Source of the DNA: Kaistia geumhonensis
Lineage (GTDB): Bacteria > Pseudomonadota > Alphaproteobacteria > Rhizobiales > Kaistiaceae
NCBI RefSeq assembly: GCF_030815145.1
Contig: NZ_JAUSWJ010000001.1
Location: forward strand, 4,020,501 to 4,084,500
Length of the DNA: 64,000 nucleotides
Direction: 5' to 3'
Each line of letters begins with the position of its first letter. Position 1 is the stretch's first letter. Shown here piece by piece: positions 16,605-29,816 of this stretch. The position numbers were made by a program, and so were the translations under genes. The notes under the pieces are model-generated. The model was not told where the DNA came from. It made no database searches and was given only the letters and a program-made list of their open reading frames with translations.

Positions 16605-17978
16605 TCAGTCGAGCGCAGCGCGCCAGGCCGCCGTATAGGTGGAGAGATCGATCGGCAGAGGGGCAGACGGCGCCGCGTCGGGAGCGCCGGGGCCCGCGCC
16701 CTTCGGCCCGTCCGCGAGCAGCGCGGCGCCCTCGGTCGTGCCCGTCGCATCTGCGCGGGCGGTCACCGGGCGGCCGGCAATCGCCGCGAGCGCGCCGAGG
16801 AACAGCGTGTTCCGCGACAACGGCCCCTCGACGATGATCGGGCCGGCCGAACTCGTCAGCTGCATGCAGGTGGTCGCGACGAGCGCGCAGTAGAGACTGG
16901 CGGCAGCGACGCGCTGGCCCGCGGTGAGCGTCTCGGGATCGACCGTCCAGTGGCCGTCGAGGAAGGCGTAGGGGCCGGTGCCCGGCGCAAACGAGGGCAT
17001 CGCCATGATGCCCTTCTCCACGACCGAGAGGATGTCGGCGTCGGTCGGCTCGGCCTTGGTGCCTTCCGTGAGCCGCTCGAACTCGCGGCCGGCCATGAAG
17101 CGGGCCGAGGGAACGGGGCGTCCGAAGGCATCGACATTGGCGAGGCAGTCGCGGGCCGGGTCGAGATTGGACATCGAGCCGCCGATGGCGAATGTGATCA
17201 GCCATGTGCCCGTCGAAAGCACCGTGAAAGGCGACTTCCGCCGCAGGATATGCGGCAGCAGGCTGGCATTCGAATCGTGGATGCCGGCGACGACGCGGCA
17301 GTCCTCGGGAAGGCCGGTCTTCGCCGCGAGCGCAGGTCGGATCGTGCCGGCGGTCTCCCATGGCTGCGTCACGGGCGGGATGAGCTTCGCCCAGCCGCGA
17401 TCCTCTGCGAGGCGCGAGAAGGTGCCGGCCTCGGGGTTCCAGAGATCGCTGTGGCAGCCGAGCGAGGTCGGCTCGGCCGCGAGCGCGCCGGTGAGCCGCC
17501 AGACCCAGTATTGCGGATACATGAGGATCGCCGTCGCCCGGCCGAAGGCGGAGGGGAACGTCTCCTCGAGCCAGTAGATCTGCCGGCCGGCGTTGAGACC
17601 GGCCGGAAGGTCGGGCGACAGGGTCTCCCAGAAGGCGCCGCGTAGCGGCCGGTAGGCCTCGGCGACGGAGTCGGGTCCGGTGTATTCATAGTCGAGGATC
17701 GGGAGGACGAGGCCGTCGGGGCCGAGAATGGCGACGGCCGCGCCATGGGTCGTCGTCGAGATGCAGCCGATGCTGCCCTTCGCGGCATAGTCCTTGAGGC
17801 CGGCGACGATCCAGCTCCACAGGCGGTCGGTGTCGAAATGCGGATAGAGACCCTCGCGCAGGACCTCGTTGGCCGTCGTGCGGATCTCGACGATCGCGCG
17901 CGATCCGGCGTCGACCAGCGCCAGCTTGGCGTTTGTCTTTCCGATATCGAGCACGACGGTGCAGGCGGGAAGCGACAT
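16605..17978 (-). CDS. FGGY-family sugar kinase (RhaK-like copy 1)
   Basis: ATP-dependent carbohydrate kinase of 457 residues with two actin-like domains. Signatures are the N-terminal phosphate loop VVLDIGKTNAKLALVD, THGAA, PQYWVWRLTG, GIHDSNASLLPHIL, STGTWLITFA and the C-terminal IIVEGPLSRN. It is of the type that phosphorylates L-rhamnulose in rhizobial rhamnose loci. ATG 17978 (MSLPAC) follows AAGGAG at 11 bases. A second, clearly homologous kinase lies directly upstream on the same strand, with an 81-base gap. Which copy acts on rhamnulose is unknown. Confidence 0.85.
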   Translation of the reverse strand: MSLPACTVVLDIGKTNAKLALVDAGSRAIVEIRTTANEVLREGLYPHFDTDRLWSWIVAGLKDYAAKGSIGCISTTTHGAAVAILGPDGLVLPILDYEYTGPDSVAEAYRPLRGAFWETLSPDLPAGLNAGRQIYWLEETFPSAFGRATAILMYPQYWVWRLTGALAAEPTSLGCHSDLWNPEAGTFSRLAEDRGWAKLIPPVTQPWETAGTIRPALAAKTGLPEDCRVVAGIHDSNASLLPHILRRKSPFTVLSTGTWLITFAIGGSMSNLDPARDCLANVDAFGRPVPSARFMAGREFERLTEGTKAEPTDADILSVVEKGIMAMPSFAPGTGPYAFLDGHWTVDPETLTAGQRVAAASLYCALVATTCMQLTSSAGPIIVEGPLSRNTLFLGALAAIAGRPVTARADATGTTEGAALLADGPKGAGPGAPDAAPSAPLPIDLSTYTAAWRAALD

Positions 17979-18059
17979 GGACGATCCGGCTCCTTGGGGT
18001 CGCGGCTCCTTGCGGTGGCCGGACAATAGCCGAACCCGCCGCCGCGGTCGCGCTCCGCG

Positions 18060-19436
18060 TTATGCGCCGGTCGCGGACCGCCAGTCGGCGGCATAGTCGG
18101 CGAAGCCGGCGCCGAGCGAGGGTGCGGGCGGCGGGTCGGCGAGGGCGAGGGCGCCGTCCGGTCCATCGGCGAGAAGGGCGGCGCCTTCGGTGGTGCCGGT
18201 CGCATCAGGGCGGCCGATGACCGGCCGCGGCACCAGCGCCGCCAGGGCAGAGAGAAACAGGCGATTGCGCGCGAGCGGCCCCTCGATCAGCACCGGACCC
18301 TCCGCTCCGGCGAGCGTCAGCGACACCTCTGCGACGAGCGCGGCATAGAGCGTCGCGGCGGCCGTCCGCTCGCCCGGCGTGAGCTTGGCGGCGTCGTGCG
18401 ACCAGGAGCCTTTTCGGCTGCCGAACGGCCCGGAACCCGGAACGAAGCCCGGCAGCGCCATGATGCGTCGCTCGATGACGGTGGCGATGTCGGCATCGGT
18501 CGGCTCGACCGCGGCGCCTTCGGTCAGGATCTCGAACTCGCGGCCGGTCATGGACATGGTCGAGGAGACCGGCCGACCGAAGGCGTCGACATAGGCGAGG
18601 CCGCCGCGCGCGGGATCGAGCCGGTCGAGGCTGCCGCCAGCGGCGAAGGTGATCATCCAGGTACCGGTCGAGATGACGGCGAAGGGAAGCGGCCGGTTCA
18701 GGATATGCGGCAGCAGGCTGGCATTCGAGTCGTGGATGCCGGCGACGACGCGGCAATCCTCCGGCAGGCCGGCCGCGGCGGCGAGCTCCGGCAAGATGGC
18801 CCCCGCGATGCCCCAGGGCGCTATTCGGGGCGGAAAGAGCGAGGCCCATCCTTCGCGGTGGGCAAGGGCCGAATAATCGCCGGCGCCGGCGTTCCAGAGG
18901 TCGGTGTGCGCCCCGAAGGCGGTCGGCTCGGCGACGCGCGTTCCCGTGAGCCGCCAGACCCAGTATTGCGGATAAGGCAGGATGGCCGACGCCCGAGCGA
19001 AATCGTGCGGGAAGCGCCGCGCCAACCAGAACAGCTGGCGGCCGGCATTGAGCCCGCCCGGCAGGTCCGGCGACAGGATCTCCCCGAAGGCGCCGCGAGC
19101 GCGGCGATAGTCATCGGCAAGTTCGTCCGGCCCGGGGTGCTCGTAGTCGAGCACCGGCAGGACGAGGCCGCCCTCGTCGATCAGCGTGATCGCCGCGCCA
19201 TGCGTCGTCACCGCGATGACCTCGATTCGCGCGCGCGGCGCCGCTTCTGCGAGACCGGCGAGGAACCAGGCCCAGATCGCCTCGACGTCGAAATGCGGAT
19301 AGGGCGGGGCGGGAAGAACGGCGCTGCGCATGCTGCGCATCGCGATGACGGCGCGGCTGGCGCGGTCGATCACGGCGAGCTTGGTGTTCGACTTGCCTAT
19401 ATCGAGAACGGCGACGGCGGCGGGGCGTGTCGTCAT
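18060..19436 (-). CDS. rhaK: FGGY-family sugar kinase (RhaK-like copy 2)
   Basis: Paralogue of the downstream kinase, 458 residues, with the same motif order: VLDIGKSNTKLAVID, THGAA, PQYWVWRLTG, GIHDSNASLLPHIL, STGTWMITFAAGGS and VLIEGPLARN. Its position between the free-standing aldolase and the other kinase makes it part of the minus-strand sugar operon. In Rhizobium leguminosarum a single RhaK ends the rhamnose transport operon and is also needed for uptake. Here two copies may share or split this role. Assignment of the symbol to this copy is tentative. Confidence 0.82.
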   Translation of the reverse strand: MTTRPAAVAVLDIGKSNTKLAVIDRASRAVIAMRSMRSAVLPAPPYPHFDVEAIWAWFLAGLAEAAPRARIEVIAVTTHGAAITLIDEGGLVLPVLDYEHPGPDELADDYRRARGAFGEILSPDLPGGLNAGRQLFWLARRFPHDFARASAILPYPQYWVWRLTGTRVAEPTAFGAHTDLWNAGAGDYSALAHREGWASLFPPRIAPWGIAGAILPELAAAAGLPEDCRVVAGIHDSNASLLPHILNRPLPFAVISTGTWMITFAAGGSLDRLDPARGGLAYVDAFGRPVSSTMSMTGREFEILTEGAAVEPTDADIATVIERRIMALPGFVPGSGPFGSRKGSWSHDAAKLTPGERTAAATLYAALVAEVSLTLAGAEGPVLIEGPLARNRLFLSALAALVPRPVIGRPDATGTTEGAALLADGPDGALALADPPPAPSLGAGFADYAADWRSATGA

Positions 19437-19459: not shown

Positions 19460-20506
19460 TCAGGAGCGGGCGGCTTTGGCCAAGGCGCGGCGATAGATCT
19501 CGGCGTCCCAGTTGACGAGCTCGCTTTCTTCCGAAGCCGTGAGAAGGCGGAGGTCGGCGGCTGGATCGATGCGGCCGGTGACGTCGGCGATCGCCCGCGC
19601 CAGCGCATCGGCACCGTTCAGCGCGGCGCGATGGACGAGCACGCCGAGGCCGGGCAACGCGAGCAGCATCTGCGGCACCGTCGCGTCGGATTCGAAGGTC
19701 GCCGGCATCTCTCCGTCGGGAAGGACGGCCACGGCGCTGCCCAGGAACACGACATGATCGGGATAGAGCGTGCCGCGCCGGGCGACGGCGAGGCGCTCCG
19801 GATCGGTCGCCGTGTCATGGGCGACCGGATCTGCTGGAAGGCGCCAGTCCGAACCTTCGGCGAGGCGTTCCAACGCTCCGATATCGGCCGGCGGCGCCGG
19901 ACGGGCGGGCGTCGCGAGTGCGGCCGAGACACGGCGCAGCAGCGCCCCCGCCTCGTCCACCGTTTCGGCTGCGACGATGAGGCCGTGATTGCCGAGCGTC
20001 ACGACATTGGTGCCCGATTTGGCTTCGGCCGAGATGGCGCGGGCGAGTGGCAGGCCGGGCTTCAGATAGGGAATATGGCAATGGACGACGCCATCGAGGC
20101 CGGCGAGGCAGGTGTCGATCGCGGCAGCGGCATCGCTTCGGGCGGCGAGCGCGACCGTCTCGATGCAATGGACATGCAGGACCACCGCCTGCGGAAAGAC
20201 GGCATGAACCGAGGTCTCGACCGACGGCCTCAGTCCGTGGGGATTAGCCTCGGCGATGACGAAATCGGTCGCCTTGGCGGCGCGTTCGTCGCCGGCCGCG
20301 ATCGCGGCGCGCAGCGGGTCGAGCGCAACGGGCAGAAAGATGTCGCGGCGATCGGCTTCGGCGAGCCAGGTGCCGGAGGCCTTGATCCAGAGCCGGCCGC
20401 CCTCCTTCACCGACGTGTTGCCGCCGGCCGCTTGGGTAACCAGCGGATCGCGCCCGATGTGGGCCGAGAGGGCGGCGAGTGCCGAGAGCGCCTGTGATAC
20501 GGCCAT
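19460..20506 (-). CDS. Class II aldolase, free-standing
   Basis: Zinc-dependent class II aldolase/adducin-family protein of 348 residues. AAGGNTSVK and LWIKASGTWL form the substrate and phosphate-binding start, and VLHVHCIETVAL, VHCHIPY and TLGNHGLIVA carry the metal-binding His and acidic residues. The last 130 residues (from YPDHVVFLG to WDAEIYRRALAK) resemble the linker region of the aldolase half of the bifunctional RhaD in this locus. It lies 23 bases upstream of a kinase gene and downstream of a terminator after the binding-protein gene. It probably cleaves a sugar 1-phosphate to DHAP and an aldehyde. Confidence 0.8.
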   Translation of the reverse strand: MAVSQALSALAALSAHIGRDPLVTQAAGGNTSVKEGGRLWIKASGTWLAEADRRDIFLPVALDPLRAAIAAGDERAAKATDFVIAEANPHGLRPSVETSVHAVFPQAVVLHVHCIETVALAARSDAAAAIDTCLAGLDGVVHCHIPYLKPGLPLARAISAEAKSGTNVVTLGNHGLIVAAETVDEAGALLRRVSAALATPARPAPPADIGALERLAEGSDWRLPADPVAHDTATDPERLAVARRGTLYPDHVVFLGSAVAVLPDGEMPATFESDATVPQMLLALPGLGVLVHRAALNGADALARAIADVTGRIDPAADLRLLTASEESELVNWDAEIYRRALAKAARS

Positions 20507-20527
20507 GATGCCATCGCGCGAAATGTG

Positions 20528-20565
20528 GAAACGAAAACGCGAGGCATGGTCGCCCATGCCTCGCG
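20528..20565 (-). terminator. Intrinsic terminator after the sugar-binding-protein gene
   Basis: A perfect 12-bp stem (20538-20549 with 20554-20565, TCGC-type loop) is followed on the minus strand by TTTTCGTTTCC. It lies just after the binding-protein stop and before the aldolase start, so it would limit transcription of the aldolase and kinase genes or make them read-through dependent. Confidence 0.75.
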
Positions 20566-25276: not shown

Positions 25277-26086
25277 TCACGGCGTCCCCACGGCCTCCGT
25301 GCTGTCCTGGGAGTCGGGCTCGACGACGAGGAGGCGAATGCCGGCCTCGTCGATCATTTTGGCATGGGCGGGCGAGAGGCCGCTGTCGGTGATGATCATG
25401 GTCACGCGGTCGAGCGGGCAGAGGATCAGCGGCGAGCGGCGCTCGAATTTCGAGGAATCGGCGAGGAGGATCAGCTCGTCCGCCTGATTGATCAGCTTTT
25501 GCTCCGCCTGGATCAGCAGCGGATCGCCCTCCATGACGCCGCTCGGGCTGATCCCCTTGGCGCTCATGAACATCCGCCGCGCATAGAAATTGCGCGTCAC
25601 GTCGTTCTCGAAGGGCGAGAGAACGAGGCTCTGTTCGCGATAGACGGCGCCGCCCGGCAGCACGATCGTGTTCTTCGAGGTGCGGACCAGCGTCTCGGCG
25701 ATGGCGAAGGAGTTCGTCAGGATCTGCATCCGCCGCCGCGCCAGATGATCGACCATCTGGTAGGTGGTGGTGCCGCCATTGATGATGATGGAGTCGCCGT
25801 CGGCGCAGAGATCGACCGCGGCCCGCGCGATGGCCCGCTTCTCGGCGAGGTTCATCTGCTCGCTGGCCGCGAAGTGGCGTCCGCCGATGCCCACGAGCTG
25901 GGGTGGATGCAGCGCCTCGGCGCCGCCGCGCACCTTGTTGAGCTTGCCGTCCTGATGCAGCGCGTTGATGTCGCGCCGGATCGTCGCCTCGGAGGCGCCG
26001 GTCAGCTCAACCAGCTGCGCGACCGTCACGACCGGACGGTCGGCGATCTCGCTGAGGATGATCCTCTGGCGCTCGATTTCGTGCAT
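25277..26086 (-). CDS. rhaR: DeoR-family repressor of the rhamnose locus
   Basis: DNA-binding regulator of 269 residues. The N-terminal DeoR helix-turn-helix (about residues 1-58) contains VAQLVELTGASEATIRRDIN and is followed by KVRGGAEAL. A sugar-phosphate sensor domain with IIINGGTTTYQMVDHL and LADSSKFERRSPL follows. It is the first gene of the transporter operon and is divergent from the rhamnose catabolic genes, as RhaR is in Rhizobium leguminosarum. A GGGAGGAG site precedes ATG 26086. It most likely represses both directions until a pathway intermediate binds. Confidence 0.87.
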   Translation of the reverse strand: MHEIERQRIILSEIADRPVVTVAQLVELTGASEATIRRDINALHQDGKLNKVRGGAEALHPPQLVGIGGRHFAASEQMNLAEKRAIARAAVDLCADGDSIIINGGTTTYQMVDHLARRRMQILTNSFAIAETLVRTSKNTIVLPGGAVYREQSLVLSPFENDVTRNFYARRMFMSAKGISPSGVMEGDPLLIQAEQKLINQADELILLADSSKFERRSPLILCPLDRVTMIITDSGLSPAHAKMIDEAGIRLLVVEPDSQDSTEAVGTP

Positions 26087-26107: not shown

Positions 26108-26135
26108 ATCTTGCCGGCGAAACGCGCCATGTCAA
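26108..26135 (-). promoter_or_regulatory. Candidate promoter of the rhamnose transport operon
   Basis: On the minus strand TTGACA (26135-26130) is followed after 16 bases by CAAGAT (26113-26108), about 22 bases before the DeoR start codon at 26086. The -35 is a full consensus match; the -10 is weak. The AT-rich dyad at 26138-26152 lies immediately upstream. Confidence 0.45.
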
Positions 26136-26137
26136 TC

Positions 26138-26229
26138 ATTTTCGATCAAAATGCGTTATATTGCGTCGCAACAGCGCGGTTTTGCAGCGCAATCTGACGA
26201 TCTTGCTCGATATTGCATCGCGATATGAT
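26138..26229. promoter_or_regulatory. Cluster of dyads, candidate DeoR operators of the rhamnose locus
   Basis: Four dyads lie in the divergent gap. ATTTT-CGATC-AAAAT is at 26138-26152. TTGCG-T-CGCAA is at 26161-26171, TTGC-AGC-GCAA at 26182-26192 and TTGCATCGCGA at 26213-26223. The last three begin 21 and 31 bases apart, near two and three helical turns. The first and third of these TTGC copies share the longer context ATATTGC-R-TCGC. A possible -10 TATGAT (26224-26229) for the plus-strand genes abuts the last copy. Confidence 0.5.
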
Positions 26230-26377
26230 CATTTATGACGGTGGATGATTGACAAAGCCGCCGGGCGCTGGGAAAGCTTGGCCGACCCGTCGCCCGGCCT
26301 TCGTCGTGGCGTGCCTTACCGTGCCGGCCGGCCCGCCGCCGGACGGTCCAGCTCTCAAAAAGCGGACAAATCCGATC

Positions 26378-28474
<2,097 letters not shown>

Positions 28475-28523: not shown

Positions 28524-29816
28524 ATGACCGATCTACCGATCTCGGAGGCGATCGTCGCCGAGAACAACAAGGCCGCCGAGGCGGCGCTCGCCAACGACTA
28601 TTCGGCGCTTGGCGAGCAGCTCGACCGGCGCGGTATCGACATCGACGCCGTGACGCGCAAGGTTGCGTCGTTCGGCGTCGCCATTCCCTCCTGGGGCGTC
28701 GGAACGGGCGGCACGCGTTTCGCACGCTTTGCCGGCCCGGGCGAGCCGCGCGGCATCTTCGACAAGCTGGACGACTGCGCCGTCATCCAGCAGCTGACTC
28801 GCGCAACGCCGACCGTCTCGCTGCATATCCCGTGGGACAAGGCGGATCCGGTGGCGATCAAGGCGAAGGGCGACGCGCTCGGCCTCGGCTTCGACGCGAT
28901 GAACTCCAACACCTTCTCGGACGCGAAGGACCAGGCTCTCAGCTATAAGTTCGGCTCGCTGTCGCACACCGACAAGGCCGTCCGCCAGCAGGCGATCGAG
29001 CACAATATCGAGACGATCGAGATCGGCCGCGTGCTGGGCTCGAAGGCGCTGACCGTGTGGATCGGCGACGGCTCGAACTTCCCCGGCCAGTCCAATTTCA
29101 CGCGCGCCTTCGAGCGCTATCTCGATGCCATGAAGGCGGTCTATGCGGCGCTGCCGGACGACTGGCGGGTCTTCACCGAGCACAAGCTCTACGAGCCGGC
29201 CTTCTACTCGACCATCGTGCAGGACTGGGGCACCAATTACCTCATCGCTCAGGAACTCGGTCCCAAGGCCTTCTGCCTCGTCGACCTCGGCCATCATGCG
29301 CCGAACGTCAATATCGAGATGATCGTCGCGCGGCTCATCCAGTTCAGGAAGCTCGCGGGATTCCACTTCAACGATTCCAAATATGGCGACGACGACCTCG
29401 ACGCCGGCTCGATCAACCCGTTCCAGCTGTTCCTCGTCTTCAACGAGCTGGTGGACGCCGAGTATCGCAAGGCGGAGGCCTTCGATCCGGCCTACATGAT
29501 CGACCAGTCGCACAACGTCACCGATCCGATCGAGAGCCTGATGGCGAGCGCGATCGAGATCCAGCGCGCCTATGCGCAGGCGCTCCTCGTCGACCGGCCG
29601 GTGCTCGAGGCATTCCAGGAGGCCAACGACGTGCTGATGGCGCGCGAGACGCTGAAGCGCGCCTTCAACACCGATGTCTCGCCCATCATCGCCAAAGCGC
29701 GGCTCGCCAAGGGCGGCGCGATCGATCCGATCGCCGCCTATCGCGCGTCGGCCTACCGCGCCCGCGTCACGGCCGAGCGGCCGGCGACGGGGGGCAGCTC
29801 GAGCGGCATCGTCTGA
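28524..29816 (+). CDS. rhaI: L-rhamnose isomerase of the rhizobial type
   Basis: Converts L-rhamnose to L-rhamnulose. The 430-residue protein has the xylose-isomerase-like TIM-barrel pattern: WIGDGSNFPGQSNF, EHKLYEPAFYST, DLGHHAPNVNIEMIVARL, and the metal-binding HFNDSKYGDDDLDAGS. This family is distinct from E. coli RhaA. ATG 28524 is preceded by GGGGGAC. It forms a two-gene operon with rhaD, divergent from the regulator and transporter genes. Confidence 0.9.
   Translation: MTDLPISEAIVAENNKAAEAALANDYSALGEQLDRRGIDIDAVTRKVASFGVAIPSWGVGTGGTRFARFAGPGEPRGIFDKLDDCAVIQQLTRATPTVSLHIPWDKADPVAIKAKGDALGLGFDAMNSNTFSDAKDQALSYKFGSLSHTDKAVRQQAIEHNIETIEIGRVLGSKALTVWIGDGSNFPGQSNFTRAFERYLDAMKAVYAALPDDWRVFTEHKLYEPAFYSTIVQDWGTNYLIAQELGPKAFCLVDLGHHAPNVNIEMIVARLIQFRKLAGFHFNDSKYGDDDLDAGSINPFQLFLVFNELVDAEYRKAEAFDPAYMIDQSHNVTDPIESLMASAIEIQRAYAQALLVDRPVLEAFQEANDVLMARETLKRAFNTDVSPIIAKARLAKGGAIDPIAAYRASAYRARVTAERPATGGSSSGIV

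Follow-up and report, generated by a model that had tools for sequence, protein, structure and literature searches.

The L-rhamnose locus described here lies in Kaistia geumhonensis, the genome of which consists of one contig of 4.59 Mb, within a stretch of 64,000 nucleotides that was analysed as a whole (the window, 64 kb). It is of the Rhizobium type, with rhaR ahead of ABC transporter genes and two FGGY kinase genes, divergent from rhaD and rhaI (Table 1). Among the best 80 of a larger number of named contigs, the closest RhaR proteins came from a Bosea-labelled MAG (98%), a Mesorhizobium-labelled strain (87%), and Kaistia soli (86%). At positions 19460–20557 on the minus strand, between a binding-protein gene and the kinase genes, a further gene encodes a 365-residue protein with a class II aldolase domain, in addition to the bifunctional rhaD on the opposite side.

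Table 1. Genes and candidate regulatory features of the rhamnose locus (positions in the window).
Feature	Position	Strand	Remarks
Two tandem FGGY-family carbohydrate kinase genes	16605–18026, 18060–19436	-	Pfam FGGY_N and FGGY_C_2 in both
rhaR, DeoR-family regulator	25277–26086	-	HTH_DeoR and DeoRC domains
TTGACA, likely -35 of the rhaR operon	26130–26135	-	box conserved; overlaps the outermost left half-site
Left arm, candidate RhaR half-sites 10 bp apart	26131–26148	-	GTCAATCA box plus CGATCA; the minus strand reads TGATCG-N4-TGATTGAC
Dyad 1, candidate PhaR-type site	26161–26171 (21-mer 26156–26176)		12.5 bits, rank 1 in the 64-kb window
Dyad 2, weaker candidate PhaR-type site, flanked by dyads 1 and 3	26182–26192		7.6 bits, rank 5
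Dyad 3, candidate PhaR-type site	26213–26223		9.6 bits, rank 3
Right arm, candidate RhaR half-sites	26226–26253	+	TGATCA, TGACGG, TGATTG(AC), in 10-bp steps
TTGACA, likely -35 of rhaDI	26249–26254	+	box conserved; overlaps the outermost right half-site
rhaD, bifunctional rhamnulose-1-phosphate aldolase / short-chain dehydrogenase	26378–28474	+	TIGR02632 above cut-off
rhaI, L-rhamnose isomerase, rhizobial type	28524–29816	+	TIGR02629 above cut-off

For the divergent promoter, the initial annotation had proposed three TTGC-type dyads, spaced by 21 and 31 bases on one face of the DNA and bound by a cooperative DeoR repressor, next to an AT-rich dyad and two candidate promoters. Positions and spacings of the three dyads were reproduced. 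Dyad 1 (TTGCGTCGCAA) and dyad 2 (TTGCAGCGCAA) have perfect arms, dyad 3 (TTGCATCGCGA) is imperfect with a single arm base deviating, and the two spacings correspond to about 2.0 and 2.95 helical turns at 10.5 bp per turn. Counted plainly, the pattern stands out only slightly: five strand matches to TTGCRNYGCRA are present in the window where 1.93 would be expected, at least five were reached in 6 of 100 shuffles, and TTGCRNYGCAA occurs at 16 places genome-wide compared with 12 for the reversed letters. Since such counts say little, the argument against a chance origin of the dyads rests on their fit to a binding-site matrix and on the orthologous regions. Taken by these measures, the clustering of dyads that fit the matrix, together with their conservation, is above chance.

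The matrix is that of PhaR (AniA), the PHB-binding regulator of Sinorhizobium meliloti, for which the motif WNWD2NYGCRNYGCRNH2WNW was reported, most commonly among PhaR-repressed genes (PMC12542648). Its 18 training sites are published PhaR/AniA sites of S. meliloti from efficiently bound promoters, and the rha rows were left out (PMC12542648). The core YGCRNYGCR with AT-leaning arms is present in all three dyads; training sites score 11.9–28.1 bits, and two of the three dyads fall below that range. A fourth dyad at 26203 was considered and rejected, being a bare TTGC with a matrix score of -17.88.

PhaR is encoded in the K. geumhonensis genome (TIGR01848, 152.5 bits at a cut-off of 109.45) and shares 59% identity with PhaR of S. 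meliloti. Strong PhaR-type sites were found upstream of two of the three Phasin_2 genes, with 21.9 bits at one gene and with 12.4 and 19.2 bits, 18 bp apart, at the other, while the match upstream of phaR itself has the core and scores below 9 bits. Several copies of the palindrome, 18 and 28 bp apart, were likewise reported for the S. meliloti phasin promoters phaP1 and phaP2. There, the PhaR sites flank the -35, whereas the dyads of the rhamnose promoter lie upstream of both -35s and between candidate repressor arms (PMC12542648).

Binding of PhaR at rhaD-rhaR is already published for S. meliloti, where purified His6-PhaR shifted the intergenic region in vitro (PMC12542648). That site agrees with the present one in motif core, promoter, and left-box offset. 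Measured from the rhaR start, the left box and the site of S. meliloti 4H41 (L091) lie at the offsets found here for the left box and dyad 1. Dyad 1, centred at 26166 and 35 bp inward of the left box, thus matches the S. meliloti site in position. S. meliloti has one such site, whereas K. geumhonensis has three candidates, 21 and 31 bp apart. The consulted parts of the S. meliloti report (PMC12542648) yielded no description of RhaR arms, symmetry, or helical phase. A further strong PhaR-type site of 21.8 bits was noted elsewhere in the K. geumhonensis genome (L106:1496-1516; about position 1314959 of C1), between the gene of a LacI-family regulator and a divergent solute-binding protein gene, and PhaR may therefore reach other sugar systems.

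On both sides of the dyads, TGATYG-like half-sites follow one another in 10-bp steps. Operators of DeoR-type RhaR regulators were predicted as imperfect direct repeats with a period of 10–11 bp (PMC3870299), and both arms show this arrangement, unlike the dyads, which form inverted repeats at spacings of 21 and 31 bp. The likeness extends to the predicted Rhizobiales RhaR operator (PMC3870299) and to rhaRSTPQUK / rhaDI of Rhizobium leguminosarum, where imperfect direct repeats with a 10–11 bp period, a DeoR repressor gene, and divergent rhaDI are found as here. The Rhizobiales operator was predicted and not footprinted, and the consulted parts of that report do not mention a PhaR site. TGAYYR-N4-TGATTGAC occurs once in the whole genome, at the left arm, whereas the arm repeat with one mismatch was found twice in the window against 2.21 expected, which is not an unusual count. 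From the sequence, RhaR more likely uses these flanking 10-bp repeats, which overlap an outward-facing TTGAC on each side, and it is on the arms that RhaR would sit in this genome. The AT-rich dyad proposed beside the TTGC dyads is real (CATTTTCGATCAAAATG, 26137–26153), but it overlaps two half-sites of the flanking repeat. Regarding the two candidate promoters, both TTGACA hexamers are exact, but neither of these conserved boxes was listed by a generic promoter scan, the one listed site of which lies elsewhere.

The region was then compared with orthologous ones. The first set of RhaR orthologues came from 18 of the 28 genomes of the family and from the best 80 of a larger number of named contigs, and rhaD was divergent from rhaR in 97 of these 98 loci. 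After removal of one locus with no divergent rhaD (L016) and of three from the same genomes as others (L025-L027, same as L008-L010), 94 regions remained. PhaR-type sites scoring 7 bits or more were present in 79 of these 94 rhaR-rhaD regions (best-80 contigs included) compared with 12.2% of dinucleotide-shuffled regions, so that the motif proposed for the K. geumhonensis divergent promoter is indeed conserved in related rhamnose loci. The commonest orthologous form is a palindrome of 71 bp, consisting of a RhaR arm, a PhaR-type dyad at the exact centre, and a second RhaR arm. With phaR-less regions counted, 106 of the 139 exact-box regions have a box-to-box distance of 63 bp. Exact boxes and a core dyad occur together in 83 phaR-bearing regions. 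In 72 of them, the centre of the first dyad lies 35 bp from the start of the left box, and in 61 the centre of the last dyad lies 35 bp from the end of the right box. Dyads 1 and 3 of the window keep this distance, each to its own arm (the centre of dyad 3, 26218, being 35 bp inward of the right box end), with dyad 2 in between; the counterparts of dyad 2 in L008-L010 score below 6 bits.

For a relation to PhaR itself, the presence of phaR was compared with that of the dyad. In the first set, best-80 contigs included, 91 of the 92 genomes checked have phaR, as does that of the window, and in the sole phaR-less genome (L072) the dyad is absent. In the genus of L072, phaR is present in 0 of 35 genomes and rhaR in 25. 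In all 25 rhaR loci, rhaD is divergent and both boxes are present (with a single mismatch in one right box). None has the dyad, even if matches off the core give two regions 8.4 and 7.8 bits. An order-wide sample contained a RhaR orthologue in 93 of 397 genomes; among the 79 outside the family of the window, phaR was present in 60 and absent in 19 from two families. These order-level regions (L149-L227) were included on the basis of the two boxes and not of a divergent rhaD. In 12 of the 13 genomes with a RhaR orthologue from one genus (g103; L202-L208, L210-L212, L214, L227), the two boxes were unrecognised upstream, and the arrangement there looks different.

Pooling gave 197 regions, or 194 after removal of three sequence duplicates. 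Both boxes were recognisable in 135 of 150 phaR-bearing and 43 of 44 phaR-less regions, and the remaining 15 (of which L222 and L223 had misplaced starts) and 1 were left out for missing boxes. Two further regions (L034, L041), for which phaR was uncheckable, were excluded from the comparison, leaving 133 phaR-bearing ones. The YGCR-N1-YGCR dyad was found in 110 of these 133 phaR-bearing and in 0 of the 43 phaR-less two-box regions, counts that reflect only three changes of phaR on the RhaR tree. None of the eight other spacers tried (0, 2–8) exceeded 9 of the 133 or 4 of the 43 regions, respectively, and the reversed-letter control matched none of the 133 and one of the 43. Among the 23 phaR-bearing regions lacking the dyad, the spacer is one base longer in four (L054, L077, L087, L102). 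These carry a TGC-N4-GCA palindrome in roughly the usual position, which may be a PhaR site with a longer spacer. Where the boxes are exact and 63 bp apart, the nine central columns hold 0.89 bit in 68 phaR-bearing regions versus 0.45 bit in 37 phaR-less ones, and the inner half-site columns of the same two groups 1.47 versus 1.27 bit.

As the genomes are related, no significance of a joint loss is claimed from these counts. On the RhaR tree (174 rows), the dyad changes 19 times and phaR just three times, and the joint loss is therefore not significant. Two independent pairs were available (three with unsupported branches), which all agree when differing (1.7 of 2 on average), and a level of 0.05 is unreachable with such numbers.

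The proposal that the dyads share one helical face gained support from the spacings within arrays and from the distances between the outer boxes, both of which favour whole turns. Two or three core dyads are present in 16 regions, 15 from the family of the window and 1 from elsewhere, with spacings of 20, 21, 30, 31, or 32 bp and one of 13 bp (L024). Where the box-to-box distance is not 63 bp, it mostly lies near 63 plus whole turns (73–74, 84, 92–95, 106, 115), whereas 34, 44, and 144 bp fit more poorly. The 139 exact-box regions formed 45 clusters at 70% identity. Without the distances of 62–64 bp, the remaining 16 cluster values gave an R of 0.70 for a period of 10.5 bp (Rayleigh p of about 1e-4) and of 0.81 for periods of 10.0–10.25 bp. 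This is taken as support and not as proof of helical phasing because the clusters are not fully independent, some distances misfit, and the repeats have a 10-bp period of their own.

Taken together, these observations are best explained, and we hold this with fair confidence, by a two-input operator in which the three dyads are candidate PhaR (AniA) sites between RhaR arms. PhaR would thus occupy the dyads in K. geumhonensis. Among other explanations, the one that survives best accepts that PhaR can bind the dyads and assumes that rha transcription is hardly affected by it, the site being a weak member of a broad regulon. This would agree with S. meliloti, where binding was rated weak and rhaD is given as NR in the proteome (PMC12542648). 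However, it is unlikely in view of the distance of the first dyad from the left box, kept in 72 of 83 regions, the information retained in the central columns when phaR is present, and the multiplication of the site in the relatives of the window.

The original view, in which the TTGC dyads are operators of RhaR itself with cooperative binding on one face of the DNA, draws on their location between rhaR and rhaD, their conservation, and their phasing, and a footprint of RhaR was not found in the literature consulted. It is no longer the leading one and appears improbable, as the dyads fit the PhaR matrix, the motif recurs upstream of phasin genes, and the dyad is absent from all 43 arm-bearing phaR-less regions and present in just 110 of the 133 phaR-bearing ones, although rhaR and the repeats are kept. 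Moreover, the direct repeats predicted for DeoR-type RhaR regulators (PMC3870299) stand on either side of the dyads. For the motif match, the absence in phaR-less regions, and the prediction of RhaR on direct repeats, the dyads were not assigned to RhaR and are probably not the operator of this DeoR protein. An assignment of the dyads to a third regulator that recognises a comparable TGC-N3-GCA palindrome, such as a carbon regulator lost together with phaR, is very improbable, since the matrix was built from PhaR sites alone and the S. meliloti region is a reported target of PhaR (PMC12542648), even if short GC palindromes are not restricted to one family and phaR-less lineages may be without other carbon-storage genes.

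With PhaR on the dyads and RhaR on the arms, the following mechanism may be proposed. RhaR, a negative regulator according to Rhizobium genetics (PMC9025865, PMC3870299), would bind the outer tandem TGATYG repeats, cover both outward -35s, and repress both operons until released by a rhamnose intermediate; RhaR of Chloroflexus was released in vitro by L-rhamnulose (PMC3870299). PhaR on the central dyads would add a carbon-storage (PHB) gate to rhamnose uptake and breakdown. As the dyads lie upstream of both -35s, PhaR is likelier to help or hinder the assembly of RhaR between the arms than to simply cover a promoter. A contact between PhaR and RhaR is presumed here, and the effect of PhaR could be of either sign. 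More tentatively, the rha promoter of PHB-making Alphaproteobacteria could be one stereospecific assembly with two outward RhaR arms and one or more central PhaR dimers on the same face, in which sugar repressor and carbon sensor are read as a unit. In the relatives of the window, this unit would then have been lengthened by whole turns with extra PhaR sites, and in phaR-less lineages the centre would have decayed with the spacing of the arms mostly preserved. In the literature searched, neither a symmetric RhaR-PhaR-RhaR layout nor multi-dyad arrays nor the joint absence of dyad and phaR was found described.

Sugar use thus appears to be wired to carbon stores (PHB) by candidate PhaR sites in the rhamnose promoter, and the use of rhamnose, a trait of importance for nodule competition among rhizobia (PMC9025865), should depend on the PHB state through PhaR, a prediction that can be stated at the level of single bases. 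The analysis also tells apart the sites of two regulators that a promoter motif search could merge. Furthermore, the expansions that keep the phase and the loss of the centre in regions without phaR would provide a natural series for the coupling of two DNA-binding proteins via helical phase.
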